From: Hyphomicrobiales bacterium
GTDB lineage: Bacteria > Pseudomonadota > Alphaproteobacteria > Rhizobiales > Xanthobacteraceae
DNA length: 50,875 bases
Direction: 5' to 3'
NCBI GenBank assembly: GCA_017305555.1
Contig: JAFKKM010000042.1
Span: 1-50,875, forward strand
The number at the start of each line of letters is the position of its first letter. Position 1 is the first letter of the stretch. The position numbers and the translations under genes were made by a program. The notes under the pieces are model-generated. The model did not search any database, had not been told where the DNA came from, and saw only the letters and a program-made list of their open reading frames with translations. Shown here piece after piece: positions 2,376 through 28,922 of this stretch.

Positions 2376-5300
2376 TCACCACGCGTATCTGAGCGTGCCC
2401 TTACCGGTGTAGCCGGTGACGTTGTTGGAGAACTCGCCCTCGAAGCTGACGGCGAGGGCGAAGCCGTTGCGCCAGGCGATCTCGGCACCGGCGGAGACCA
2501 GCGCGGCATCGGGCGCCATCGCCGCGCCGCTGACGAGGAAGCTGGAGCCCGGCAATGCCTGAAATGTCGCAGCCGCGTTGCGCGCGGTGTCGAAGTTGTG
2601 CGCCCAGGCGGCGCGGCCACGCAGCGTGAATAGCGTCTCCCCCATCACCATGGTGCGGTCGAGCCGCAGGCCAAGTTCGCTGCGCGTCGCGGTGACGTCA
2701 CGGCCCGCATAGGCCAACGCAAAGCTGTCAGCCGCGCCGTTACCCTGTTCGAGATAGGACGGCATCCGATAGCTGATCGCCTGCGCCGCCGCGTAAGGCG
2801 TGACGCCCGCCCATGCGGTGTCGATGCGCCAGCCCGCCTCCAGCCGACCCGAGAGCACACCAGCCTTATAATCGCCGCGCAGCCGCTCGCCGGTGGAAAC
2901 GGTTCGATCGGTGGTGACGTCATGCCAACCGTAGGCGAATGCGCCGCTGAGGTACCCGTTGCGTGCGAACCCGTGATGCGCGAATACGCCTGCCTGGAAC
3001 ATGTCGCTGTGGCCGGAGCCCATGCCGCCGGCGAGCGCGAACGAGGTGCCGCCGCCACCGAAGGCGAAGCCGAGTTCGGTCGTCGGCGACAACGCGTAGG
3101 ACACGCCGCCCATCGCGCCATAGACGCGGCTGGTGGCGTCGTGGCTCCCGAGCGCGGCGTTACCGCCGATCTGCGTATTACCACCGTAGACCGCACCGAA
3201 AGTACGCCAGCGCTGTTCGAAGGTCTGTGTCTGCGGTGCCTTGGTGACGAGCGCGGCGAACACATCGCGCGGATGGCCCTCACCTGCCGTGGCGGCATAG
3301 CCCAGCAGAGATGATGATCCCGCCGTCGACGCATTGCCACGATAGCCGCCCGCGAACGGATCGGTCAGTGAGTTGAGGAACTGGCTCTGCGCATCGAACG
3401 CCGCCTGCGGCGCGGTGGCCGCAATCTCGCCGGAAGCCAACGACAGTGCCTTGAGCAGAGGATCACCCGACAGCGCGAACAGAGCGTTGAAGCCATTCGG
3501 CAGCGTCGCACCGCCAAGCAATGCATCATCGATTCCTGCCGCAACGTTCCTCTGGTTGACGTTGGCATAGCTTGGCAAGATCGGCGATAGCAGGCCGGGA
3601 TCGAGTGTCAGCAGCACGTCGTTGCCGACATAGGCCAGCCTCGGATTGCGCGCGAAATTGGTTGCAGTGAGAAAATCCACACCGGAGAAGGTGCCGCTCC
3701 GCGTGCCCGCCGTCATGATCGTATAGGTCGTCGTCATCGGCAGCCGCGCCAGCGGATCGACCACAACCTTGCCGCCGAGCGTGGCGGTGCCTGTAACAAC
3801 GGTCTTGTCGGCGCTGGCGCCGGATACTTCGACCATATAGGTCGAGGCCGCCGTCATCACCAAGTTGCCGGCAACCGTCAGCGTGCCGATCGAATTGCCG
3901 GGCGACAGTGTGCCACCGCTGACGATGGTGTTGCCGACCGTGCCGTAGCCGCCAAGCACGGCGCCAGCAGCAACGTCGAACGCGCCGCCGAGCACGGCAT
4001 TGGCGTGCGTGGCATCCGAGCCGACAATCAGCTTGCCCGCAGCGATCTCGGTCGTGCCGACAAAACTTGAGCCATCGCCGTCATAAACGAGCGCACCCAC
4101 GCCAGTCTTGGTGATCCGTCCCGTTCCGGTGAGCACGCCGCCATACGTCGCATTAGCGCTCTGTTCGAAGGTAAGCGATGCACCTGAACCGATATCGGCA
4201 TTGCCAAGGAATCGCTCGGCGGCCGTGGAAAGCCCGCCGGCCACGATCGACCAGTTGAGCGCCGAGGAGCCGGTCAGCGTCAGCTTGCCCGTGCCCTGCT
4301 TGACCATGGTGCCCGAACCGCCGATCGCGCCGGCGAAGGCGCCATCGCCACCCTGATCGAACACCACCGTCGCGTTGTTGACGAGACCGCCCGCGATCGA
4401 ATTTGCATTGCCGATCAACACACCACTAACAACGAACGTATTGCCGTAACTGTTGATGCCGGACAGCGTCAGCGTTCCAACGCCGGTCTTGGTAAGTGTG
4501 CCGTCGCCTGAAATCGTACCGGCCAACGTCAGGCCGGCATCGGTCTGGAGCGTGCCACCACCGGTGAGCAACGTGACATTGCGCGCGGTTGAGAGGGCCG
4601 CTGTATTTTGCAGTGTACCACCGTCAAAGGTGAGCGCGCCCGATGCCGCGCCGAGATTGGCATCGGTTGATACCGACAGCGTGCCGCCGACAAGCTGCGT
4701 ACCGCCGGTATAAGTGTTCGTGCCGGTCAGGACGAGCGTGCCGCTGCCGGCCTTCCTCAGGCTGTTTCCGATTCCGTCGACGATGGTCGAAGCGACGGTG
4801 GTGGTAATGCCGCTGTCGACGTTGAGTGTTGCCGCCGCGCCGGTGGATGGTGACAGAGCCAGTGAACCACCGTTGGGCGCGTAACCACTGCTCGAGAATT
4901 GCAGCGTATCAAAACCTTGCGTGCCGTTGACCGTGACGACTCCTCCCGCCGCTCCGGCAAAGACACCGACCGAGCCACCCCAGGTGCCGTTGATCTCGGC
5001 ATGACCGGGCGCGCCGGTCCAGTTAGTTCCGGCCGAGCTCCAGGTGCCGGCGCCGCCGTCCACCATGCCGTTGCCGGCCATATCGGTGCCGTCCCAGAAC
5101 TGCATCGTCTGCCCTGCGCCGAGCACCGACAGGTTGACTTGGTTCGCGATACCGGTCTGGACATCCGGAGCGCCCGCCGCCGGCGCAAACCCACCGGTGC
5201 CCGTCACCGTGCTGCTGGCGAACGAACCCGACAGCGTACCGCCATAGGTGAACAGCCGATAGAATCCCGCCGCCGCGACGCGCGCGTCGAGTGTGCCGCC

Positions 5301-7325
5301 GAGCGTCAAATTGTTGCCGACCTTGACCAGATCGTTGCCGCCGGCGCCCGTTCCGCCGACCACACCCGGCGTGTTGAGTTCGAACACCGAGGTCGAGCCG
5401 CCGTTCAGCGTCAGGTCATTCTTGATCGTCAGCGTGCCCGGGGAGTTGCCGGCCGAGAGCGTCCCGTCAACCGTGGCACTGCCGTCGATCGTGCCGCCGC
5501 CGCCCAGCGTGCCGCCGGACGCGACGCTGACGGGCCCATGCAGCGTGCCGTTCACCGAAAGCCGGCCGCCGTTGACCGTGACGCCGGACGCCCAGGTGAG
5601 ATCGCTGTTCACGACGAGCTGGCCGCCGGTGACGGTAGCGCCCGACATCGAGTTGAGATTGCCGTCCACCGACAGCGTGCCGTCGGAGACCGTCACCGGC
5701 CCCGTGTAGGTGGACATCCCGGTGAGCGACCAATCGGACGAGCCGGCCTTGTCGAGAAGCACCCAGCCGGTGCCGATCTGGCCGACATCGAAGCTGTTGG
5801 AGCCGGTGCCTGCGAAGCCGAAAGTGTCCGTGCCGCTGCCGATGGCCACACCCGACAGCGTCGCGTTCGGCCCGCTCATGACGAAGCTGTTGTTGGCGCC
5901 GCCGACAAGATACACCGCAATGCCGCTCGTACCAGTGATGCTGCCGGCATTGTTGACCGTTGTGCTGCCGATGGCGGATCCGACGCCGGCGAAACCGGTG
6001 ATCGTGCCGTTGTTCTCGATCAGGCTGTCCGAGGCTTGGACCGAGACACCTCCTCTATTTGTGCCTTGCACCGTCGCGCCGTTGCCCACCGAGACGCTCA
6101 CATGAGTGCCCACGGCGGAAAGACCGATGTCACTAGCGGTGATCGTGCCGGAGACCGCGACGTCGGTCCGGTCGAGGCTTTGGGTCAAGACCCCGTTCTG
6201 CGTGTCGCTGATCGTACCCGCGGCCGTGACGGTCACGGTTCCGGCAAGGCTGGCGGCCACGATACCGTATGCGCCTCCGCTGATCGTGCCGGAGGCGGTG
6301 ACGCTGGCCTCCCCGGTCTTGCTGATGGCCAAAATGCCGCCCGCGCCTCCGCTGATCGCGCCAGCGGCCCTGACGGTGACGTCACCGGTAGCCGTGGCCT
6401 GGATGCCCACACTGGTGCCGGCAGTGCCATTCACGGAGATCGAACTGTCTGCGCTGGTATCGACGGATGCCGTGCCCGTGCCTCCGCTGTCCAATACTGC
6501 CAGGCCGCCGTCAACCGCATAAATCGCCCCGCCGGTCTGGGACAAGGCGACGTTGCCTGACCCCGCTCCGTAGGCGGCGATGCCGTACTGGAACCTGCTG
6601 GCGGCGCTGCCGATGTTGGCGTCTGACGTGACGCTCTGCCCGCCCTGCGAGCCGATGGGCGCCCCCACACCAATGCCGAAGCCAAACCCTGCCAGGCCGG
6701 CACTGATGGTGGTGCCGCCTGTCAGCGTGGCGGAGATGTTCCCGCCACTTTCCATGGCCAGACCGCTGCCGCCGGTCACGCTGCCACCGTTCAGGAAGAC
6801 CGAGATCGGACCGGCGTCCGATTGGGCCAGAAGACCGTAGACGCCCGAAAAGGTCGGCACGACGGGCGTGTTGGCCGTCCCGACCGCGATGGCGCCGGTC
6901 GTGGTGCGAATACTGAGGCCAGCGCCAGCGGTGGCGCCGGCGCTGCCGTTGCCCAAATAGGTGATGTCTCCTCCCTGGGGCTGGAGACCCTGGAGGTTGA
7001 AGCCCGCGGCGGTTCCGGTCACTGTGCCGTTGTTGACGATGATGAAGGAGCCGCCGGCCGTCGCAACGCTAAGCCCCTCTCCGCTGATCGTCGCCCCGGC
7101 TTCGACCGTGCCTATGGTCACTCCATTGGCGGTAATGGGCACGAAGTCCGCGGGTGTCGACACCATCGAGCCGCAGGAAAACGTATAAATGTCCGAAAAG
7201 GTACAGGCCGCCAGCGCCCCGTCCGCCTGACCCGCGACACCCGCGAGCATGATGGCGGCGAAAGCCGTGCCGGAGAGAAAGCTACGCCGACGCGCCGCCC
7301 ACGACTGCTGAAACTGCTGCTGCAT
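2376..7325 (-). CDS. Large type V autotransporter adhesin-like protein
   Basis: A 1649-residue secreted outer-membrane protein. The chosen ATG (7325) gives a clean signal peptide: an RRR n-region, then FLSGTAFAAIMLAGVAG, with processing probably near residue 36-40. A longer form from 7382 adds 19 residues. The passenger is rich in Gly, Ser, Thr and Asn with repeating beta-helix turns. From about residue 530 to 1180 it holds at least five passenger-associated transport repeats of the form KxGxGTLxLTGxNxYTGxTxVxxGTLxV. The last ~280 residues form the autotransporter beta-barrel and end in the aromatic sequence RYAW typical of BamA-inserted barrels. No protease or lipase motif is seen in the passenger, so adhesion or biofilm is an inference only. 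A regulator gene lies immediately upstream on the same strand. Confidence 0.88.
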   Translation of the reverse strand: MQQQFQQSWAARRRSFLSGTAFAAIMLAGVAGQADGALAACTFSDIYTFSCGSMVSTPADFVPITANGVTIGTVEAGATISGEGLSVATAGGSFIIVNNGTVTGTAAGFNLQGLQPQGGDITYLGNGSAGATAGAGLSIRTTTGAIAVGTANTPVVPTFSGVYGLLAQSDAGPISVFLNGGSVTGGSGLAMESGGNISATLTGGTTISAGLAGFGFGIGVGAPIGSQGGQSVTSDANIGSAASRFQYGIAAYGAGSGNVALSQTGGAIYAVDGGLAVLDSGGTGTASVDTSADSSISVNGTAGTSVGIQATATGDVTVRAAGAISGGAGGILAISKTGEASVTASGTISGGAYGIVAASLAGTVTVTAAGTISDTQNGVLTQSLDRTDVAVSGTITASDIGLSAVGTHVSVSVGNGATVQGTNRGGVSVQASDSLIENNGTITGFAGVGSAIGSTTVNNAGSITGTSGIAVYLVGGANNSFVMSGPNATLSGVAIGSGTDTFGFAGTGSNSFDVGQIGTGWVLLDKAGSSDWSLTGMSTYTGPVTVSDGTLSVDGNLNSMSGATVTGGQLVVNSDLTWASGVTVNGGRLSVNGTLHGPVSVASGGTLGGGGTIDGSATVDGTLSAGNSPGTLTIKNDLTLNGGSTSVFELNTPGVVGGTGAGGNDLVKVGNNLTLGGTLDARVAAAGFYRLFTYGGTLSGSFASSTVTGTGGFAPAAGAPDVQTGIANQVNLSVLGAGQTMQFWDGTDMAGNGMVDGGAGTWSSAGTNWTGAPGHAEINGTWGGSVGVFAGAAGGVVTVNGTQGFDTLQFSSSGYAPNGGSLALSPSTGAAATLNVDSGITTTVASTIVDGIGNSLRKAGSGTLVLTGTNTYTGGTQLVGGTLSVSTDANLGAASGALTFDGGTLQNTAALSTARNVTLLTGGGTLQTDAGLTLAGTISGDGTLTKTGVGTLTLSGINSYGNTFVVSGVLIGNANSIAGGLVNNATVVFDQGGDGAFAGAIGGSGTMVKQGTGKLTLTGSSALNWSIVAGGLSTAAERFLGNADIGSGASLTFEQSANATYGGVLTGTGRITKTGVGALVYDGDGSSFVGTTEIAAGKLIVGSDATHANAVLGGAFDVAAGAVLGGYGTVGNTIVSGGTLSPGNSIGTLTVAGNLVMTAASTYMVEVSGASADKTVVTGTATLGGKVVVDPLARLPMTTTYTIMTAGTRSGTFSGVDFLTATNFARNPRLAYVGNDVLLTLDPGLLSPILPSYANVNQRNVAAGIDDALLGGATLPNGFNALFALSGDPLLKALSLASGEIAATAPQAAFDAQSQFLNSLTDPFAGGYRGNASTAGSSSLLGYAATAGEGHPRDVFAALVTKAPQTQTFEQRWRTFGAVYGGNTQIGGNAALGSHDATSRVYGAMGGVSYALSPTTELGFAFGGGGTSFALAGGMGSGHSDMFQAGVFAHHGFARNGYLSGAFAYGWHDVTTDRTVSTGERLRGDYKAGVLSGRLEAGWRIDTAWAGVTPYAAAQAISYRMPSYLEQGNGAADSFALAYAGRDVTATRSELGLRLDRTMVMGETLFTLRGRAAWAHNFDTARNAAATFQALPGSSFLVSGAAMAPDAALVSAGAEIAWRNGFALAVSFEGEFSNNVTGYTGKGTLRYAW

Positions 7326-7489
7326 TATGCACCCACGATAGACCCGGAACTGCCAGTAGAACTGACCATCGACCTCGGTCATGGGTAGCAGGCAATTGTT
7401 TGCCTAATATTTGAGCATCAGAGGACAGCCTCTGCCGGGCCATGCGCGCAACACTTCGATGCGACGATGAGGCTTCCAGGCAACAGTGT

Positions 7490-18061: not shown

Positions 18062-18991
18062 TCACTGGCCGGTCGCCGGCTGCATCGTGCCGAGGATGCT
18101 CACCAGCGCCAGAACCATCCATCCCAATAGTTGTTCGCCAAGCACATGGTCGCGTAGCCTGAGCGACCACCTGCTCCATTCATCGGGTGCGTCCGCTCGC
18201 ACGTCGCTCATCGACGGGACAAGCCAAAACCGGTTCGCGGCGGCGAGCGCCAACATCGCCGCGAACAGCACCAGCTTGCCGAGAAGAAGCAGTCCGTATG
18301 ACGTCGTCAGCAATCCGGATAGCGATCCCACCAGGAACCAGCTGTTGACGAGGCCCGATCCGATCAATGTCGCCACCGCGATGTAACCCATGCCGGAGAA
18401 TCGCAGCAAAATCTGCACCGCCTGTTTTGGCTGCACCGGCAGATCCCTTGCGCCGGAACGCGGCATGATCGCCACAAGCGAGACGAGGCCTCCAAGCCAG
18501 GCCCCCGCAGCGAGAAGGTGTGCGCCATCCGACATCATATGAATGATTCCGGCCCATCCCTCCTCGACCTGGGTGTGGCCGGTTCCCGCCAACGACACCA
18601 GAAGTACCGCGGCGAAAGCCAACGTCACCCAATAAGACACCGAACCGAAGCAAACATCCCATGCCGCCATCCCAACGATGACGAGCGCAACCAGCATTCG
18701 CAGCGACCAGACGTTGCCGAAGCTGGTGTTGTAGATAACCGCGTGCAGCGTCTCCGCATCGGCGAGATCGCCGATGCGGCCCCCCATGTTTGCAACCACA
18801 AATGCAAACCAGCACAGACCGCTGACCAGCGCGGCAACGGCTGCCATGAGAATCCACTTTCCCCGCCACCGTCTCAAGATGGACGGTTCGCCCCCTGTGC
18901 AGGCGTAGAACGGGAAAAGCGCCAGCCCAACGAGCGACGTCGCCGCCGCATAGTGCAGGAATCGTGCGACGAGCAATCCGATTTCGATCAT
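18062..18991 (-). CDS. copD: Copper resistance membrane protein CopD
   Basis: A 309-residue integral inner-membrane protein with about eight transmembrane helices and the CopD-domain signatures: an N-terminal ARFLHYAAATSLVGLALF helix, histidine-containing helices (IIHMMSDGAHLLAAGAWLGG) and an AANRFWLVPSM segment near the C-terminus. CopD proteins are proposed to move copper across the inner membrane in partnership with periplasmic CopC. Its ATG overlaps the CopC stop codon by four bases (18988-18991), so the two are translationally coupled. It is the last gene of a seven-gene run on this strand and is followed by a hairpin terminator. Confidence 0.9.
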   Translation of the reverse strand: MIEIGLLVARFLHYAAATSLVGLALFPFYACTGGEPSILRRWRGKWILMAAVAALVSGLCWFAFVVANMGGRIGDLADAETLHAVIYNTSFGNVWSLRMLVALVIVGMAAWDVCFGSVSYWVTLAFAAVLLVSLAGTGHTQVEEGWAGIIHMMSDGAHLLAAGAWLGGLVSLVAIMPRSGARDLPVQPKQAVQILLRFSGMGYIAVATLIGSGLVNSWFLVGSLSGLLTTSYGLLLLGKLVLFAAMLALAAANRFWLVPSMSDVRADAPDEWSRWSLRLRDHVLGEQLLGWMVLALVSILGTMQPATGQ

Positions 18992-19356
18992 CGGTGGCTC
19001 ACGCCGAAAGAATAAGTCCCCTTGATGCGGTGCGTGTCGTCAGAAACCGCATACCAATCGACCCTGTATTCGCCGGCAGCCATGTCCTCCAATACCGGCA
19101 CCACCAATCGCTTCTTGTCGCCGGGATCGATCGCCGCTTTTCCGACTGCGACTGTTCGACCTGTCTTGTCCTTGATCGCGATGCCGGAGAATTTCGGAAT
19201 GACCCCTTCATTGAAGGTAATTCTGATCTGCTTCGGCGGCGTTGTGACAGATCCCGCAGCCGGTTCAGCCGCCTGAAGTTGCGGATGAGCGAATGCAACC
19301 CCGTCGAAAAACGCCGCTGCGAGGATTGCGAGCATCGCTATGAATATGGTTCGCAT
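18988..19356 (-). CDS. copC: Periplasmic copper-binding protein CopC
   Basis: A 122-residue exported protein. The signal peptide ends AFA just before His24, which would become the mature N-terminal histidine used in the CopC Cu(II) site. The other expected ligands lie in VSDDTH (Asp107/His109). The fold signatures HPQLQAAEPAAGS, ITFNEGV and TYSFGVSHR are typical. The Met-rich Cu(I) loop of Pseudomonas CopC is absent, so it probably binds only Cu(II). The frame extends upstream, but the ATG at 19356 has AGGAA and the signal peptide. It overlaps copD. Confidence 0.92.
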   Translation of the reverse strand: MRTIFIAMLAILAAAFFDGVAFAHPQLQAAEPAAGSVTTPPKQIRITFNEGVIPKFSGIAIKDKTGRTVAVGKAAIDPGDKKRLVVPVLEDMAAGEYRVDWYAVSDDTHRIKGTYSFGVSHR

Positions 19357-19459
19357 CTCATTCTTCCTGTTTGCGCATTGGATGCGGACGCCGATCGGCG
19401 CTCCGCAATTCAATTCATAGGGATAGGTACGGCACGCGACGCCGCCGTGCCGTCCGGCG

Positions 19460-19762
19460 TTACTTTTCCCTCTGCATCTTTGTGACAGCGACGCCGGAAG
19501 CCGTCCGCCCGGCTTCGAACAATACCTTGTCGCCAACCTTGACCTGCTTGAGCATCGCCGGGTCCTGAACGCGGAACACCATGGTCATGCCCTCGTCCAT
19601 GTCGAGGCTTTTGATCGGGCCGTGTTTCAAAGTGATCTTGCCGGCGGCTTCGTCGATCTTCTTGACCTCGCCTTTCACCATATCCGTCCGCGCCATCGTC
19701 GCCGTCGACGACAGGGCGATGGAGATTGCGAAAATTCCTGCCATCAGGTTGCGCGCTTTCAT
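19460..19762 (-). CDS. CusF-like periplasmic copper-binding protein
   Basis: A 100-residue protein with a signal peptide (cleavage probably near residue 24, TMA-RTD) and a small OB-fold copper-binding domain. The CusF-type ligand set is visible: His47 in TLKHGPI, Met59 and Met61 in EGMTMVFRV. The tryptophan that stacks on Cu(I) in E. coli CusF is replaced here by DMDE, with Met55 nearby. It probably hands copper between periplasmic partners, such as the multicopper oxidase and the TolC-linked export encoded upstream. It lies about 100 bases before copC and about 100 bases after the oxidase gene on the same strand. Confidence 0.87.
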   Translation of the reverse strand: MKARNLMAGIFAISIALSSTATMARTDMVKGEVKKIDEAAGKITLKHGPIKSLDMDEGMTMVFRVQDPAMLKQVKVGDKVLFEAGRTASGVAVTKMQREK

Positions 19763-19859
19763 TTTGATTCCTTTCGATCGTTACGCCTTCCATCGGAAAG
19801 CCGTTTTCCCGTCGCCACCATTCATTGCTGGCGCGGCAATCTCATTCACACCGGCGCGC

Positions 19860-21239
19860 TTACATCTTCATGTCCTTGGTGTGCTTGTGCTTCATACCCT
19901 TCATCGGCGGCTTCGTGTCGTGCGGCGCGCTCGTTGGCGCGGACTGCGGCGGCGGCACATCGGTAGACGCGACCTCATAGGCGACCGTGCCTTCCGGAAA
20001 CTTGTAGGGCCCCGGATCACGGTAATCGTCACGGCCCAGCCCCTCGCGAATCTTCATCACCGTGAACATGCCGCCCATCTCGATCGGTCCGAATTGTCCG
20101 GTGCCTGTCATCATTGGCAGCGTGTTGTCTGGCGCGGGCATTTCCATCTCGCCCATCGCCATGCCGGTCGATCCCATCACCATGGCATCCGGCGCGAGCT
20201 TGCCGATCGCTTTGGCGAGATCCTTCTTCGACACACCGATCAGGTTGCGAACGTCGTGCCCCATCGCATTCATGGTGTGATGCGACTTGTGGCAGTGGAA
20301 CGCCCAGTCGCCGGGATTGTCGGCCAGCATGTCGAACGCGCGAACGGCGCCGACCGGCACGTCGATGGTCGTCTCCGGCCATTGCGCGCTCTCGGGAATC
20401 CAGCCGCCGTCCGTGCAGCTGACGCGGATATTGTGGCCGTGGACATGGATCGGATGATTGGTCATCGTCAGATTTCCGATCCGCACCCGAATATTGTCGC
20501 CGAGACGAATGGGAAGCGGATCGATGCCGGGAAACACCCGGCTGTTCCAGGTCCACATGTTGAAGTCGGTCATTTCGTTGACCTTCGGCAGGTACGTGCC
20601 GGGGTCGATCAGATAGCTGCTCATGATGAAGACGAAATCGCGATCGACCGGCCGGAACGAGGGATCGCGCGGATGCACAATGAACATGCCCATCATGCCC
20701 ATCGCCATCTGCACCATCTCGTCGGAATGCGGGTGGTACATGAAGGTGCCGCTCTTCTTCAGGTCGAACTCGTAGACGAACGTCTTGCCCGGCTTGATGT
20801 GCGGCTGCGTCAATCCGCCGACGCCGTCCATACCGCTTGGCAGAATCATGCCGTGCCAGTGAACGGTGGTGTGCTCCGGCAGTTTGTTGGTGACGAAGAT
20901 GCGGACCTTGTCGCCCTCCACCGCTTCGATCGTCGGCCCCGGCGCCTGACCGTTGTAACCCCACAGATTCGCCTTCATGCCGTCGGCGAATTCACGCACC
21001 ACCGGCTCGGCGACGAGATGAAACTCCTTCCAGTCACCGTTCATCCGCCACGGCAGCGACCAGCCGTTAAGCGTGACGACCGGACGATAGTCTGGGCCAC
21101 TGGTCGGATGCAGCGGCGGCTGCATCGTTGCCTTATCCATGATCGGCGCTTCCGGAATATTCGCGGCCTGCGCGCGGCCGCTGACCGCGCCGGCGCCAAC
21201 CAGCGCTGCCGTCCCCAGAAATCCTCGTCGCGACAACAT
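19860..21239 (-). CDS. Tat-exported multicopper oxidase
   Basis: A 459-residue cupredoxin-domain oxidase. The N-terminus has a Tat signal (SRRGFLG, then a hydrophobic stretch to ~residue 25). All four copper-ligand motifs are present: HWHG (127-130), HPH (169-171), HPIHVHGH (262-269) and HCHKSHHTMNAM (315-326), the last including the type 1 Cys316, His321 and axial Met326. The tail is Met/His/Lys-rich (KGMKHKHTKDMKM), as in copper-tolerance oxidases. It probably oxidises Cu(I) to less toxic Cu(II) in the periplasm. It starts 12 bases after the TolC-like gene with AAGGAG, so the two are co-transcribed. It is shorter than CopA/PcoA (~600 residues), so no symbol is assigned. Confidence 0.92.
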   Translation of the reverse strand: MLSRRGFLGTAALVGAGAVSGRAQAANIPEAPIMDKATMQPPLHPTSGPDYRPVVTLNGWSLPWRMNGDWKEFHLVAEPVVREFADGMKANLWGYNGQAPGPTIEAVEGDKVRIFVTNKLPEHTTVHWHGMILPSGMDGVGGLTQPHIKPGKTFVYEFDLKKSGTFMYHPHSDEMVQMAMGMMGMFIVHPRDPSFRPVDRDFVFIMSSYLIDPGTYLPKVNEMTDFNMWTWNSRVFPGIDPLPIRLGDNIRVRIGNLTMTNHPIHVHGHNIRVSCTDGGWIPESAQWPETTIDVPVGAVRAFDMLADNPGDWAFHCHKSHHTMNAMGHDVRNLIGVSKKDLAKAIGKLAPDAMVMGSTGMAMGEMEMPAPDNTLPMMTGTGQFGPIEMGGMFTVMKIREGLGRDDYRDPGPYKFPEGTVAYEVASTDVPPPQSAPTSAPHDTKPPMKGMKHKHTKDMKM

Positions 21240-21251
21240 GCGTGTTCTCCT

Positions 21252-22712
21252 TCAGTGACCGCCGCCACCGCCGACCAAGGCGGTGGTCGATGGGCGTGCA
21301 TCGATTTGCGTCTCTCCCGAACCGCCGCCATTCACGGCAGTCTGTAGATCCGATTGCGCAAGCCAGAAATTGCGTTTGGCATCGATGGCCGCGCGCATCG
21401 AGGCGATGCGCTGGCGCGCCTCGACCAGCAGTGCAAAGACATCCACCTGCATACTGGAAAAGCGCAGTTGCATTTCCTCGGTGATGATCTTGCGCAGTGG
21501 CAGCACCTCGCGCTGATATTGCCGGGCGATCTCATAGGTCGACCGGTAGGTCCGGTATGCGTCGCGCGCTTCCGATCGCACCGCGACGGCTTTCTCAGTC
21601 AGGCGATTGAACGCCTGATTGTAGGTCTCGGTTGCCTGCCGCACCCGCACCTCGCCGCCATCGAAGATCGGGATCTGGAACTGGATGTCGTAGCCGCGCT
21701 CGCGGAAACGCGAGCCGTCGGGATCGCGCGTGGTCTTCGCAATCCCCGCGACGTCAAGTAGCGTGACGAAGCGGCTCGCCTCCGTCAGGTTGAGCGCTTT
21801 CGCCAGTGCATCCAGTTCGATCCGGGCGATCTGCAGATCAATGCGATGCGTGACGGCATCCACTTCGATCGACGGCAAGGCCGAGGGGCGCCGCGGCAAC
21901 GGCGGCAGCGTCTTCGGGATGCGGAATGCAAGATCGCCGCCCCAAAGACCCATCAGGCGCGCAAGGCGTTCGCGTGCGCTGGTCGCCTCCTGACGCACCG
22001 CGGCAAGATCGGCGGTTGTCTCCGCGTAGAACACCTGCTCACGCGCCTGATCGAGCTTGTTGAGCGAGCCGGTCTCTCCCAGCTTCGATGCAAGTTTCGC
22101 GGTCGCTTCTGCCGTCGATTTGGCGTCGGTCAGAACACCTGTCATCTCGCTGGCAGCAACGGCACGATAATAGGAGCGGCGCACATCGGCCGCGAGCCGC
22201 AACGTTTCCAGCGCTGCCCGCAATTGCGCCCGACGGAAACGCTTCCTCGCGATTTCAGAGCGGAACGGCAACGTCGCCAGCGCGAGGATGTCGCCGACCA
22301 CCTGACGCTCGATCTCGATTGCGCCGCCACCTGAGATTCGTGAAATCGAGAATGTCGGGTTAGGCGGAAGGCTGTCCTGAACCAGATCGGTTTCCGCCAA
22401 CGCCAGTTCGTTGTAGGCGGCTTGCAGTCCACGATTGTTCAGCAGCGCAACCTGAACGGCGCTTTCCACACTCAGCGTCTGGCGCAGCAGCCGTTTGACG
22501 GAGTCGTTCGCGATATGTGCATCATCGCTGGAGCGGATCGCAACGACATCCTTTCTGATGGTGCCATCCGTGATCGCCGCAACCGTGCTCATGCCACCGT
22601 CGGGCGAGAACGTCGCGCAGCCGGACAGAAAAAGGGAAATGGTGAGTACCAGCACCGACCGCCGGTGTCGAAGGAGGTCGCGATGCGGCGACACGCCACG
22701 CAAAATCGTCAT
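21252..22712 (-). CDS. TolC-family outer-membrane efflux lipoprotein
   Basis: A 486-residue outer-membrane factor with a lipoprotein signal (lipobox LFLSGC, Cys32). The body shows the paired TolC/OEP repeats: long helical segments (LLNNRGLQAAYNELALAETDL and TEKAVAVRSEARDAYRTYRSTYEIARQY) and the barrel strand YDIQFQIPIFDGG. No inner-membrane RND pump or membrane-fusion gene is adjacent, so it may pair with a pump encoded elsewhere, or act alone in copper tolerance as in CopB-replacing layouts. The ATG at 22712 has TAGGAG at seven bases. It begins 10 bases after the small lipoprotein gene. Confidence 0.9.
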   Translation of the reverse strand: MTILRGVSPHRDLLRHRRSVLVLTISLFLSGCATFSPDGGMSTVAAITDGTIRKDVVAIRSSDDAHIANDSVKRLLRQTLSVESAVQVALLNNRGLQAAYNELALAETDLVQDSLPPNPTFSISRISGGGAIEIERQVVGDILALATLPFRSEIARKRFRRAQLRAALETLRLAADVRRSYYRAVAASEMTGVLTDAKSTAEATAKLASKLGETGSLNKLDQAREQVFYAETTADLAAVRQEATSARERLARLMGLWGGDLAFRIPKTLPPLPRRPSALPSIEVDAVTHRIDLQIARIELDALAKALNLTEASRFVTLLDVAGIAKTTRDPDGSRFRERGYDIQFQIPIFDGGEVRVRQATETYNQAFNRLTEKAVAVRSEARDAYRTYRSTYEIARQYQREVLPLRKIITEEMQLRFSSMQVDVFALLVEARQRIASMRAAIDAKRNFWLAQSDLQTAVNGGGSGETQIDARPSTTALVGGGGGH

Positions 22713-23826: not shown

Positions 23827-24879
23827 TTACCAAGTGTACCGGAGTCCGGCCTGCGCACCGATGGTCTGGAAAGCACTGCTGGGGATAAGGGGATTGAACG
23901 CGACCTGCTGCGACATCGCCGTGCCATGAACCTCAAGGTAGGATGAGAAGTTCTGGGTCCAAATCACGTTCATCTTCGCGGAACCGCGAATACCATACAA
24001 GTCCGCCATGCCGGCGAAACCGCTGGAATCGACGATCCGGAATCCAATAGCAGACACCGTTGGCTGCACCTTGTAACCCATCCAATTCATCTCGGTGCCG
24101 ATACGGGCGCCGCCATGAATTTCGGTGCTATCGCCGGTCTTGTTGCCGAAGTTCCCGCCATAGCTCTCCGAATAAGTCACACCGACTGTCGGTTCGAACC
24201 AAACCGAATAAGGAAAGTCAAAGCGATACTGCGTATTAAAGGTGTAGCCGACCGAACTGCCGTCTGTCGGCACCACGAACGGAAGGTTAAACGTACTTCG
24301 GCTCCAACTGAGTAGAACCGACGCATCGGCCGAGAATCCGCCGTTCAAGTACGATACGGTCGCCGAGGTCGACGGCATGGAGCCGTCCATACCCGCTGAG
24401 TTGGACCAGGAGTGTCCGCCGGTCCCGATGAACGTCAAGGCATCGGTTGCACCGAAGACACCAATTTTCGTGATATCGAACGCCCCGACGACAGTTTCAA
24501 CATTCACGTTGACCCCGGCACTCGCGTGGTCAACGCTCCCGACGAGGTTTGCCCCATACAGCCAGGATGGCGTGGCGGCGACGAGCGCCGGTGCCTTGGC
24601 GTATCCCAGCGCGCCGAAAGGGTTGCTGATCTTCCGTTGAGCGAACAAATCCCGACCGTCGAAATCGGACGACTCTCCACTGAACCGCAGCGTACCGGCC
24701 GGCGGAACGACACGACGTCGCGAGACCTCGTCGCGAACCGTCTGAACGATGTTCTGGATGACGTTGCCAATAATTTCCTTCTGAACATCGGCACCGCTTT
24801 GAGCGGCAGCGGGCTGCACCATCATTGCGGAAATAGCTGCGGCGGACAGCAAGCCCACCGAAAACTTAAATGAGCGCAT
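23827..24879 (-). CDS. Small outer-membrane autotransporter-like beta-barrel protein
   Basis: A 350-residue exported protein. The ATG at 24879 gives a signal peptide ending QPAAAQS. A short helical segment follows (ADVQKEIIGNVIQNIVQTVRDEVSRRR), and then ~270 residues of alternating aromatic/polar strands that end in LRYTW, the usual signature for barrel insertion. This looks like an autotransporter beta-domain with almost no passenger, or another ~12-stranded barrel. A 171-base in-frame upstream extension lacks protein character. The gene is alone on its strand, ends in a strong terminator, and is divergent from the caspase-like pair across a 273-base spacer, suggesting shared regulation. Confidence 0.75.
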   Translation of the reverse strand: MRSFKFSVGLLSAAAISAMMVQPAAAQSGADVQKEIIGNVIQNIVQTVRDEVSRRRVVPPAGTLRFSGESSDFDGRDLFAQRKISNPFGALGYAKAPALVAATPSWLYGANLVGSVDHASAGVNVNVETVVGAFDITKIGVFGATDALTFIGTGGHSWSNSAGMDGSMPSTSATVSYLNGGFSADASVLLSWSRSTFNLPFVVPTDGSSVGYTFNTQYRFDFPYSVWFEPTVGVTYSESYGGNFGNKTGDSTEIHGGARIGTEMNWMGYKVQPTVSAIGFRIVDSSGFAGMADLYGIRGSAKMNVIWTQNFSSYLEVHGTAMSQQVAFNPLIPSSAFQTIGAQAGLRYTW

Positions 24880-25152: not shown

Positions 25153-27384
25153 ATGTGCAAATTTATTTCCCAGTCGGGACAGGATGCGCACGGTGGTCGC
25201 AAGGCTCCGCATAGGCCCTCTTTTCTGAGCAATCGGCGTCTCATCGCAGCACTTCGGGCTGCGACCTTTTGTCTGACTCTCTCGGTACTTTCATTTGGCG
25301 GGATCGTTTCGGCCTCGGCCGAGGAGCGCATTGCACTTGTCATCGGCAACAGTGAGTACCGCAACGTCGGCAAACTCCCCAATCCGGTCAACGACGCGGC
25401 TGACATGGCCGAATCCCTGAAGCGGCTTGGCTTCAACGTCAATCATCTAAGCAATGTCGATTACGACAGTTTCCGACATGCCTTGATCGACTTCGGTAAA
25501 GCCGCCAAGACGGCCGACAAAGCGGTGATCTTCTACGCAGGCCACGGCGTCGAAATCGACGGCAAGAACTGGCTCATCCCGGTCGATGCGGTGATCAAGT
25601 CCGCCGTCGACGTTTATGCCGAAGCGATCAACCTCGAAACCCTGATCGACATTTCGATCTATCCAAAAATCCTCGGCCTCGTGATCCTCGATGCCTGCCG
25701 AAACGATCCGTTTGCCGTGGCCTCGACATCGACCGGCCGCTCACTTGCAAACAGCGGCACCAGCGATTCCAAAAAGAAGCACGCGAAAGCATCCGCTGCA
25801 TCGGCTGCTCCGATCCAGGTCGCAGCGCGCGGCCTCGCGCCGGTCGAGGTCAACGATAACGTGCTGGTTGCGTTTGCCGCAGCCGCGGGTACCACCGCCA
25901 GCGACGGCGCGGGTCGCAACAGTCCTTACTCGGGCGCGCTGCTGCACTATATCGAAAAGCCGGATCTCGAAATCAATTACCTGTTCAGAAACGTTCATGA
26001 CGACGTTCTGAAAGAGACGAGAACCCAGAGTCCCACCGTCTACGGCACCCTTTCCCGGGAAGAAATCTACCTTAGCGGCCTTGCCAATATTGCGGCCGGC
26101 GACGTCAATGCCGACGCGGAAAAAGTGGCGTGGGCGTTCGTGCGCACGACGAGCGACATTGCAACGCTGCGTCGCTTCGCGGAGCAATTTCCCGCAAGCT
26201 CCCATTTGTCCGAGACGCAGGATCGGATTGCGAAGCTTGAAAATGCCGAAAAGCTCGCCTGGTCAATCGTCGAGAAGGAAAAGTCTGCTCCCGCGTATCG
26301 CGCCTTCCTCGACCTCTATCCGAGCGGCGAGCGCGCCGAAGGCGCGCGCGCGACGTTGGCTTCGCTGCAAACGGCATCCGGTGCAGGGACGCGAGCGCCA
26401 GCCGCGCTGAACCTGCCGAAACCACCGGCCTCGACTTATCAGCTCGCATCCGCATCACCCGAGGCAACGACCGGGAATACGATTTCGATCGACAAGGCCT
26501 GGGATGTGCTCAGGGATTCCCACGACAAGGCCCTCGTCGGAAAGTTCGCGGAGAAATATCCCAGCCTGCGCGAGCATCGTCTTCCCGCAGGAAGCGATCT
26601 GGCATTGCGGCCAGTCAATCTGACCGATTGGATGATGCGAACGGCACAGGATGAGGATGTGAACAGCTGCTTCGGCGGCAATGCCGCAGCGTGCGCCAAG
26701 GCCGCGAGCCGATATCCGGAGTACGTTCAACTGCAATTCCAGCTCTGCCGGACCACGGGCGAGCGGGCCGGATGTATGCAGAAGGCGGTCAGGGATGCAC
26801 GCAAGAAAGGCTACCTGGTTTCGGCCTACACGCGTTCGGCCATCGAAAAACAGCGCAATCGCGAATATCGGCGGACGATCGAACGCGTCAACCAGCGGGT
26901 CGGCACGATCGTGAGCAACAATGTGAGTAATGCGGTCAGCAACGCCGTCAGCAATTCGGTCAACAACGCCGTGTCGGCGGCGACGTCTCGCGCTGCCAGC
27001 CATGCGGCGTCGGCCGCGTCATCTCGCGCGGCTTCGACGGCGGCGGCCCGTGCGGCACGCAGCGCCGCATCGACGGCCGCGGCGAACGCCGCGGCGCGCG
27101 CAGCGGCCAACGCCGCAAGCAATATCAGGGTCCCATCCGACATGCGGCTCAAATCCGATATTGTCCCGCTCACACGAACCCGCGATGGCTTCCAGCTCTA
27201 TCGCTACCGTTACATTGGCGATGACATAGTCTATGTCGGCGTCATGGCTCAGGATATCGCACACCAGATGCCGGCGGCGGTCTCGATCGCGAACGATGGC
27301 TATTTGCAGGTCAACTACGGCTTGCTGGGCATCGCATTCCTCACCTACAGTGACTGGGTGAGATCACACGCGATTCCGAATTGA
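25153..27384 (+). CDS. Exported caspase-like protein with tetrapeptide-repeat stalk and S74/MYRF-type self-cleaving C-terminal domain
   Basis: A 743-residue protein. Residues 1-57 are a signal peptide with a long n-region ending SASAEE. Residues ~58-300 form a caspase-like (peptidase C14) domain that starts ERIALVIGNSEY, with the dyad His131 (FYAGHG) and Cys182 (LDACRNDPF) intact. Residues ~320-580 are helical, with repeats resembling WxxVxxT-RRFAEQFP. Residues 586-657 are 18 consecutive tetrapeptides, first xVSN-like and later AAxx. The last 82 residues match the tailspike/endosialidase intramolecular chaperone (peptidase S74; MYRF ICA). The SDMRLK motif provides Ser662 and Lys667, spaced as in the known Ser-Lys autoproteolytic dyad, followed by VGVMAQDI and LQVNYGLL. 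It probably trimerises and may cut itself before Ser662. The downstream pseudo-caspase gene is coupled to it. Confidence 0.85.
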   Translation: MCKFISQSGQDAHGGRKAPHRPSFLSNRRLIAALRAATFCLTLSVLSFGGIVSASAEERIALVIGNSEYRNVGKLPNPVNDAADMAESLKRLGFNVNHLSNVDYDSFRHALIDFGKAAKTADKAVIFYAGHGVEIDGKNWLIPVDAVIKSAVDVYAEAINLETLIDISIYPKILGLVILDACRNDPFAVASTSTGRSLANSGTSDSKKKHAKASAASAAPIQVAARGLAPVEVNDNVLVAFAAAAGTTASDGAGRNSPYSGALLHYIEKPDLEINYLFRNVHDDVLKETRTQSPTVYGTLSREEIYLSGLANIAAGDVNADAEKVAWAFVRTTSDIATLRRFAEQFPASSHLSETQDRIAKLENAEKLAWSIVEKEKSAPAYRAFLDLYPSGERAEGARATLASLQTASGAGTRAPAALNLPKPPASTYQLASASPEATTGNTISIDKAWDVLRDSHDKALVGKFAEKYPSLREHRLPAGSDLALRPVNLTDWMMRTAQDEDVNSCFGGNAAACAKAASRYPEYVQLQFQLCRTTGERAGCMQKAVRDARKKGYLVSAYTRSAIEKQRNREYRRTIERVNQRVGTIVSNNVSNAVSNAVSNSVNNAVSAATSRAASHAASAASSRAASTAAARAARSAASTAAANAAARAAANAASNIRVPSDMRLKSDIVPLTRTRDGFQLYRYRYIGDDIVYVGVMAQDIAHQMPAAVSIANDGYLQVNYGLLGIAFLTYSDWVRSHAIPN
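26908..27123 (+). repeat. 18 tandem tetrapeptide-coding units (12 bases each)
   Basis: Within the caspase-like gene, 216 bases encode exactly 18 four-residue units in register: IVSN, NVSN, AVSN, AVSN, SVNN, AVSA, ATSR, AASH, AASA, ASSR and so on to AASN. The first five are Val/Ser/Asn-type and the rest Ala-rich. The strict period of four differs from the heptads of a standard coiled coil and directly precedes the S74-type trimerisation domain. Confidence 0.9.
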
Positions 27385-27386
27385 GA

Positions 27387-28922
27387 ATGCGACTTTCACT
27401 ACGGTCGGCCATATTCACATTTGCAGCGACCATTCTTCTCTTCTGCGGCTACGCCGCCGGCGCGGAAGAGCGGCGCGTTGCATTGGTTGTCGGCAATGCC
27501 AACTATGCCAATGCGCCTCGTCTCGCCACATCGATCAACGATGCCGAGGACATCGCTGACGCCCTCACGCGTCTCGGCTTCAATATTGTTCTTCGCCGGG
27601 ACGCAACGGCAGCGGACCTGCGTTCCGCGATCGAGGAATTCTCGCTGAAGTCCAGCAAGGCGGATATCGCGATCGTCTACTACGCGGGCTATAGCCTGAA
27701 TGTCGGAGTCGGCGGTTATCTGGTGCCCATCGATGCCAGGCTTTCGGCTCCGTCCGAGCTTCGCGCTGAGACCATCCCATTGCCGCAAGTGATATTTGGC
27801 GCCGGCAAAGCGCACTCATTGGGCTTGGTAGTTCTCGATGCATTGCACGGAAATCCTTTTCCCATCGAAGCCGAGTCGTTGAGTATCGATCCCGGCGCTG
27901 ATGCGGCTTCGTCGCGATCTGGCGGCGCGCGGAACGTGCTGCTCCTGTTCGCCACCGAGCCAAAAAAGATTTCGGTGCAAGGTCACGGGCGCAACAGCCC
28001 GTTGGCTGCGGCATTGTTGGAGAATCTCCCCAAACCGGGCCTCGAGATCAACTTCCTGCTTCGCAACGTGCGCGACCATGTGCGGCACGCGACACATTCC
28101 GAGCAAACCCCGTACATGTACGGGCAACTTTCCAAGCAGAAGATTTTTCTTGCCTCGCCCAAGGATGGCGTCGCATCCACGGCGCAGACCGAAGCCGCGA
28201 AGGTCCAGCCGTGCGACGAACTCGCGGCCGCACCCGACGACGCCGCCAAACCTTCAGAGGTCGCGGGAGTTGCGCTTGAGAAAATCGTGACTGCTGATGC
28301 GATCGCCGCATGTTCGGACGCGGTAAAACGTTTTCCCACCACCGACCGCTTTTATTATCAACTCGGGCGGGCGTTTTTTGCCGCACAAAATTATGACGCT
28401 GCACTGACGAACTACAAGAAAGCTTTCGAGCTTGGCAGCGTGCGCGCACTCTTCACTCTCGGCACGCTCTACGATCATGGCGAGGGCGTGGGCCGCGATC
28501 CGGCCCGCGCTCGCTTCTATTACGAGATCGCGGCTCAGAAGAAATTCGCTCCGGCCATCGCAAGTCTGGGTTTGCTGTACGAGACCGGAACCGGCGTCAC
28601 CCAGGATGCCGCGAAAGCCTATGAGCTTTATCAGCGCGCGGCGGACCTTGGTGACGCCGGCGCAATCAACAAAATGGGCGAACTGACTGAAAAGGGACTT
28701 GGCGTCGCGCGCAATGTCAAGAGCGCACGAGCGCTGTACGAAAGGAGCGCGAAGATGGGGCATCCCGAGGCGACCGTGAATTTGGCCCGCTGCTTCGCCA
28801 ACGGCATCGGTGGCCGCAAGGATATTCCCGAGGCGAGGAAGCTCCTCACGCGCGCCGCAAAGGCCGGAAGCACGCAAGCTCGCAACATTCTCGCCGCGAC
28901 GAGCCGACGCGAACGAAAGTAA
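27387..28922 (+). CDS. Pseudo-caspase (catalytically dead caspase-like protein) with Sel1 repeats
   Basis: A 511-residue exported protein. A signal peptide (ending AAGA-EE) precedes a caspase-like domain that begins RRVALVVGNANYANAP. It aligns well with the upstream protein, but the catalytic His is Tyr102 (YYAGYS) and the catalytic Cys is Leu153 (LDALHGNPF). Both sit at the same 51-residue spacing as in the active partner. The C-terminal part has one TPR-like hairpin and then about four Sel1 repeats (residues ~352-506; GTLYDHGEGVGRD, GLLYETGTGVTQD, GELTEKGLGVARN, ARCFANGIGGRKD), usual protein-interaction modules. A TTG at 27381 overlaps the previous stop (TTGA); the ATG at 27387 is preferred. 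Loss of both catalytic residues suggests a regulatory or scaffold role. Confidence 0.85.
   Translation: MRLSLRSAIFTFAATILLFCGYAAGAEERRVALVVGNANYANAPRLATSINDAEDIADALTRLGFNIVLRRDATAADLRSAIEEFSLKSSKADIAIVYYAGYSLNVGVGGYLVPIDARLSAPSELRAETIPLPQVIFGAGKAHSLGLVVLDALHGNPFPIEAESLSIDPGADAASSRSGGARNVLLLFATEPKKISVQGHGRNSPLAAALLENLPKPGLEINFLLRNVRDHVRHATHSEQTPYMYGQLSKQKIFLASPKDGVASTAQTEAAKVQPCDELAAAPDDAAKPSEVAGVALEKIVTADAIAACSDAVKRFPTTDRFYYQLGRAFFAAQNYDAALTNYKKAFELGSVRALFTLGTLYDHGEGVGRDPARARFYYEIAAQKKFAPAIASLGLLYETGTGVTQDAAKAYELYQRAADLGDAGAINKMGELTEKGLGVARNVKSARALYERSAKMGHPEATVNLARCFANGIGGRKDIPEARKLLTRAAKAGSTQARNILAATSRRERK

Follow-up and report, generated by a model that had tools for sequence, protein, structure and literature searches.

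A caspase-like protease carrying a C-terminal Peptidase_S74 (S74) domain is encoded in at least 14 bacterial loci, together with a catalytically dead caspase paralogue and an outer-membrane-barrel-like protein. The Ser-Lys dyad of the S74 domain is conserved in these loci, the long C-terminal helix described for MYRF is replaced by another conserved ending, and the domain shows phage-type kinship. The S74 module is otherwise known mainly from viruses, and the arrangement suggests an undescribed cell-envelope protease system in soil bacteria. We read it as a three-gene envelope module consisting of an orthocaspase, probably self-trimming at Pro661/Ser662, a pseudo-caspase and an outer-membrane protein, a reading that we hold with as much doubt as confidence.

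Architecture of the fusion protein and its two linked genes

The window, i.e., the whole stretch of 50,875 nucleotides that was analyzed, holds the following features of this locus:

25153..27384, plus strand: caspase-S74 fusion protein, 743 aa (ORF without stops)
25153..25320, plus strand: N-terminal region, residues 1-56, with a signal-peptide-like hydrophobic stretch (read by eye)
25327..26058, plus strand: caspase (Peptidase_C14) domain, residues 59-302, with His131 and Cys182 (Pfam, E 7.7e-36)
26083..26832, plus strand: helical repeat region, residues about 311-560 (AF2)
26905..27135, plus strand: Ala/Ser-rich stalk, residues 585-661, with a four-residue period (lag test; length differs between orthologues)
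27136..27381, plus strand: S74 domain of a helix-poor subtype, residues 662-743, with Ser662 and Lys667 (Pfam, AF2, viral ICA folds)
27387..28922, plus strand: pseudo-caspase with Sel1 repeats, catalytic His changed to Tyr and Cys to Leu (Pfam)
23827..24879, minus strand: 350-aa outer-membrane-barrel-like protein with a signal-like N-terminus (sub-threshold Autotransporter match, PF03797)

A Pfam search of the fusion ORF places Peptidase_C14 (PF00656) over residues 59-302, an orthocaspase p20 domain with both His131 and Cys182, and Peptidase_S74 (PF13884) over residues 662-710 (E 2.5e-5; 24.9 bits against a gathering score of 22), where Ser662 and Lys667 form the SDxxxK dyad. The N-terminus, read by eye, has a hydrophobic stretch and then SASA|EE, which is signal-peptide-like, and we infer that the protein is exported. 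On the intact caspase-like domain and the C-terminal S74 domain with its dyad, a preliminary description of this DNA is borne out, and the signal-like N-terminus fits the export that it proposed. That description had also named a repeat stalk; repeats are indeed present, but they fall into two parts. In the helical repeats, the block pLDDT of the AF2 model is 72-88 for residues 321-410, 72-82 for residues 501-520 and 31-71 in the remaining blocks. The Ala/Ser stretch that follows repeats every four residues, with 41 identities at lag 4, a value reached by none of 10,000 shuffles, and its block pLDDT is 26-44. The full-length model has a mean pLDDT of 48.4, with the caspase part poorly modelled. 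In a six-frame search of the window's genome with both the Pfam model and a subtype profile, the fusion ORF was the sole S74 match at E <= 0.001.

The preliminary description had recognized the fusion itself and overlooked two linked genes. The ATG of the pseudo-caspase gene lies two bases past the fusion stop codon, and its product matches C14 (PF00656, E 1.1e-29) and Sel1 (E 2.8e-33). The catalytic His is replaced by Tyr and the Cys by Leu or Met in 13/13 aligned copies, and the copy at L179 has Tyr and Leu; thus, a second caspase-like gene lacking both catalytic residues follows the fusion in all 14 loci found. The barrel-like protein scores 21.4 bits against PF03797, below the cut-off of 26, and a relative, L177, reaches 26.9 bits. 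In all 12 named loci, the barrel gene is divergent and lies at most about 2 kb upstream of the fusion. At L179 the gene order differs, with the barrel gene on the far side, adjoining the pseudo-caspase gene. The barrel gene therefore belongs to the cluster in 14/14 fusion loci found, including one with another order. The N-terminal extension of the barrel protein contains a V-rich segment and, before the barrel, an RDx4R motif that is invariant in 16/16 aligned rows. Since orthocaspases cut after basic residues, according to the part of the source available (PMC6426788), RDx4R may be guessed to be a candidate caspase site. By eye, the V-rich pattern of the extension resembles the beginning of the caspase stalk.

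The named neighbour genes of the locus concern transport, copper, tRNA modification and flagella. A prophage origin of the locus was considered and rejected, since a Pfam scan of 18 ORFs of the window gave no phage family except S74. Elsewhere in the window, positions 2376-7382 (minus strand) encode a 1668-aa autotransporter with PATR repeats and a full Autotransporter beta-domain, and positions 18062-22712 (minus strand) encode CopD, a multicopper oxidase and an OEP-family outer-membrane efflux protein, resembling a copper-handling cluster.

Distribution and ancestry of the gene cluster

The same fusion, for which the preliminary description had proposed a search in other genomes, occurs in at least 14 loci: the window, 12 contigs of named genomes and L179 (genome G342). 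The 12 were obtained from a named-genome scan with the S74 alignment, in which, among the best 80 of 245 loci, a single ORF combines caspase and S74 in 12; they comprise nine Bradyrhizobium strains and three MAGs, the latter identical with genomes G004, G002 and G006. Because the contig scan used one exact motif, fusions with another spelling were missed; the fusion of G342, which reads GVLAQ, surfaced through the barrel query and the mid-region query of the family genomes. An assembly or single-genome artefact is ruled out by the 14 loci. Near-full-length matches were found in four of 61 genomes, all of one genus, where they make up four of its eight genomes, and the three other fusions of this genus are 81-86% identical to the window's protein. 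His131, Cys182, Ser662 and Lys667 are invariant in the 13-row fusion alignment and are also kept in L179; Pro precedes the dyad Ser in 13/13 aligned fusions. For the S74 part, dN/dS is 0.09-0.15 (six pairs from four sequences). Its presence in half of the genus genomes and this low ratio argue that the fusion is not a chance event. Spread by plasmids was likewise rejected: 244 plasmid records match the fusion query, none covers 80% of it, and the barrel has no plasmid match. In genome G000, 12 places match the fusion query at E <= 0.001, a large caspase family for one genome; among the matches listed, those other than the fusion gene itself align through the caspase region.

With a query taken from the part between caspase and stalk, eight of 296 family genomes gave a match; we take this sample to be the same as the 296 searched with the barrel. 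Six of the eight have both the S74 fusion and the barrel (the window's genome, G002, G004, G006, G342 and G532, the last taken as the same genome as L084). The remaining two, G390 (L180) and G028 (L006), carry a caspase without S74, and these sister caspases have a VKVPNVKV-type repeat tail in place of stalk and S74. The barrel query matched only 11 of the 296 family genomes and, in a wider sample, two of 249 from the order, including one weak match. In G390 a related barrel is encoded on a separate contig; G028 is absent from the 11 matching genomes. The barrel homologues L177 (G378) and L178 (G487) have no caspase match within about 6 kb on each side; in G018 and G424, too, no caspase match lies near the barrel match, which is weaker there. 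Given such lone barrels and S74-less related caspases, neither the barrel link nor the S74 link is absolute, and linkage inside a single bacterial family can be a product of common descent.

The 14 fusions group together in a tree of 56 caspase domains (SH-aLRT 83) and are joined next by L180 (100) and then by L006 (95). The pseudo-caspases form one group of 15 (SH-aLRT 100) that includes the neighbour of L180, in which His is kept and Cys is changed to Ser. As the S74-less L180 still has this neighbour, the caspase pair exists independently of the S74 tail, which, judged from these sequences, would either have arrived later or have been lost in the sister. In a tree of S74 domains with few columns, many unresolved forks and some very long branches, the S74 domains of the caspases cluster together (93), separately from the long S74 forms found in the order.

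Subtype, fold and other carriers of the S74 domain

The alignment and profile of the subtype were built from 45 of the 82 available domains, i.e., that of the window plus those of 81 bacterial ORFs. The dyad Ser and Lys are invariant in 45/45 aligned domains, and SDxxxK occurs in 80 of the 81 bacterial ORFs (from the best 80 of 245 loci) and in 80/80 viral ORFs (the best 80 of 417). This invariance would fit retained catalysis. At L102:3753-4190 in Sinorhizobium medicae, two S74 ORFs lie close together, the first without the dyad Ser. Searched against the PDB at E <= 1, the profile returned two matches, the phage fibre tip 6f45 (E 0.0052) and the MYRF ICA 7dc3 (E 0.023). The 7dc3 chain has Pro before the dyad position, as in the fusions, and Ala at the place of the Ser, which is taken as an inactive mutant. 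An AF2 monomer of the S74 part has a confident core (pLDDT 88.8, pTM 0.80). With this model, a BFVD search found 20 viral models at E <= 0.001, several of them named ICA, and one entry superposes at an rmsd of 0.8 A over 74 columns. Foldseek against the PDB gave no match at E <= 0.001, the best being a kinase (E 0.25), and no ICA entry among the 50 matches listed. An ICA core fold is thus predicted for the fusion from the AF2 model and its viral matches, the PDB search being without a significant match.

The ending of the domain is distinctive. In MYRF, whose Ser-Lys dyad has been described (PMC3742443), the dyad is S587/K592 and the C-terminal helix alpha4 (N670-K705) is, in the available part of the source, the main driver of trimerization (PMC8326128). 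In the fusion, 22 residues follow Asn721, whose equivalence to MYRF was assigned by motif, and they contain a conserved LG...T(Y/W)..W ending. Only a 4- and a 9-residue helix appear in this tail in the AF2 monomer model, in which a trimer-induced helix would not show. By eye, the long S74 proteins found in the order finish in a heptad-like helix, and the difference between short and long forms is more one of sequence than of total length. In 80/80 viral ORFs (the best 80 of 417, some at contig ends), the stop comes 17-53 residues past the VMAQ-type motif, and several of them share an LG/VG...T(W/Y) ending. The best PHROG match of the window's protein is phrog_6121, a head/virion structural family (E 7.2e-18, partly over the Ala-rich stalk), followed by phrog_4287, a DNA ejection protein (E 6e-9), whereas tail fibre matches much less strongly (4.7e-4). 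This subtype is present on two named phage proteins of 330 and 312 aa, both annotated as structural, and the gene for the S74 structural protein of Rhizobium phage RHph_Y1_10 adjoins a putative injection-protein gene.

The subtype is also found on other bacterial proteins. Among the 81 S74 ORFs in 80 loci (the best of 245), 48 carry DUF3300, 12 carry caspase and 21 carry neither, the last including ORFs cut by contig ends. A Pfam search of ten chosen ORFs gave FecR in two (L103 and L150), an outer-membrane barrel in one, DUF3300 in one, caspase in one and S74 alone in five; in the barrel carrier, S74 falls just under the Pfam cut-off. The linkers before S74 vary among Ala/Ser, Gly-rich, Thr/Asn and Pro types. 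In Bradyrhizobium DUF3300 proteins (L095:3327-5261; L063-L066), for example, a Gly-rich linker precedes an S74 domain that mostly reads SDIALK; no paper combining DUF3300 and S74 was found in the open-licence PMC literature. In L135, a MAG labelled Planctomycetota, the S74 domain is nearest in the tree to that of the Xanthobacteraceae MAG L086, possibly a binning error.

Proposed mechanism, alternatives and comparison with known systems

In the proposed mechanism, gene 1 would encode an exported orthocaspase whose C-terminal S74 domain folds after export. The Ser662-Lys667 dyad would then probably cut before Ser662, with Pro661/Ser662 as the probable cleavage point, freeing the 82-residue tail. 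If this cut follows folding, the folding of stalk and S74 would gate the mature caspase. Gene 2, the dead caspase with Sel1 repeats, would probably partner gene 1 in a regulatory or scaffolding role, and gene 3, the barrel-like protein, would probably be a substrate or surface partner of the caspase. The parts of this scheme carry different weight. Self-cleavage of the fusion S74, argued from motif and conservation, is somewhat more probable than its opposite; oligomerization, possibly via the stalk, could equally well hold or fail, and we are evenly divided over partnership within the module. A role of the barrel as substrate or anchor of the caspase falls a little short of that. A broader version is tentative and less likely than not: a virion-type S74 without trimerization helix would serve as a folding sensor, cut itself off and switch on (or localize) the exported caspase, which would work with its dead paralogue and process the barrel, and S74 would be a general C-terminal self-processing tag for exported proteins of these bacteria.

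The preliminary description had instead assigned the domain to the tailspike/MYRF subtype, in which a classical chaperone would build a caspase trimer and then excise itself. S74 superfamily membership, SDxxxK and the profile matches to 7dc3 and 6f45 all point that way. However, a conserved other ending replaces the long C-terminal helix, the top phage families are head and ejection proteins, and no triple beta-helix stalk is visible in the fusion, only the Ala/Ser stretch; the assignment to that subtype is therefore not supported, and such a chaperone is unlikely here. It is also doubtful, if slightly less so, that S74 is a trimer-independent C-terminal processing or sorting tag of Hyphomicrobiales exported proteins that releases them or anchors them at the outer membrane. 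Its occurrence after low-complexity linkers, which differ among carriers, on unrelated proteins (DUF3300, caspase, FecR, barrel) would be expected of such a tag; against this, a single S74 copy in the window's genome is a low number for a sorting system, phages commonly carry the subtype, and the export of the carriers is judged by eye.

The sister caspases L006 and L180, with their VKVPNVKV-type tail, would be compatible with an inert phage-derived S74 that took the place of another repeat tail and plays no part in processing, but the low dN/dS and the invariance of the dyad in 14 loci make this quite improbable. Lastly, a caspase effector of anti-phage defence, to which a weak PADLOC caspase match (E 9.2e-7, 26.4 bits) might point, is very hard to reconcile with the data: the fusion has a signal-like N-terminus, both partner genes are without a PADLOC match at E <= 0.01, and a Pfam scan of 18 ORFs of the window showed no gasdermin. 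The envelope module thus remains our preferred reading. If true, the gating of protease maturation by an S74/ICA module would be a new use of the module. The locus would further open to test the site of action of exported Rhizobiales caspase homologues and the role of their dead copies, as well as the ability of an ICA module to function when its trimerization helix is missing.

The preliminary description knew of no system with this layout, and in agreement with it, no paper on a caspase-S74 layout was found in the open-licence PMC literature, broader matches being judged by title and the start of the abstract. A survey of prokaryotic caspase homologues lists 112 domain architectures, and the terms s74 and endosialidase are absent from its main text as far as available (PMC3501461). 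Pseudo-orthocaspases are frequent in Rhizobiales, the source of 561 of 582 in one set (PMC6426788). Rhizobiales orthocaspases and pseudo-orthocaspases share with the present proteins a caspase domain with His and Cys, and Tyr-for-His variants are common among them (PMC6426788, PMC3501461). They differ in that the available parts of these texts mention neither S74 nor an active/pseudo pair linked to a barrel gene; moreover, the dyads here are Tyr-Leu and Tyr-Met, whereas the pseudo-orthocaspase dyads named there are YS, YA, FS, QC and HA (PMC6426788, PMC3501461).

For the S74 side, the parts of the literature available report ICA/S74 in phage fibres, fibres of predatory bacteria, contractile-injection loci (PMC8213781) and one animal transcription factor. 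With the ICA domains of endosialidase, the T5 fibre and MYRF (PF13884), the fusion shares the profile match, SDxxxK, the predicted core fold and the C-terminal place; unlike them, it is without the long C-terminal helix, shows no beta-helix stalk and sits on a caspase-like protease. Proteins of phrog_6121 and phrog_4287 share the S74 subtype at the extreme C-terminus but are virion proteins, and no caspase ORF occurs in the viral loci (the best 80 of 417). The Bdellovibrio MAT fibres resemble the fusion in being encoded by a bacterial genome, in their signal peptide and in a C-terminal S74 with SDxxxK, and one of them, Bd3182, self-cleaves at its Ser (PMC10769870). As described in the available part of that paper, they are adhesive, trimeric fibres with beta-helix regions, whereas the N-terminal part of the fusion is a caspase (PMC10769870); right after the signal peptide they have a beta-rich domain of about 130 aa, and in the fusion the caspase domain stands there instead.
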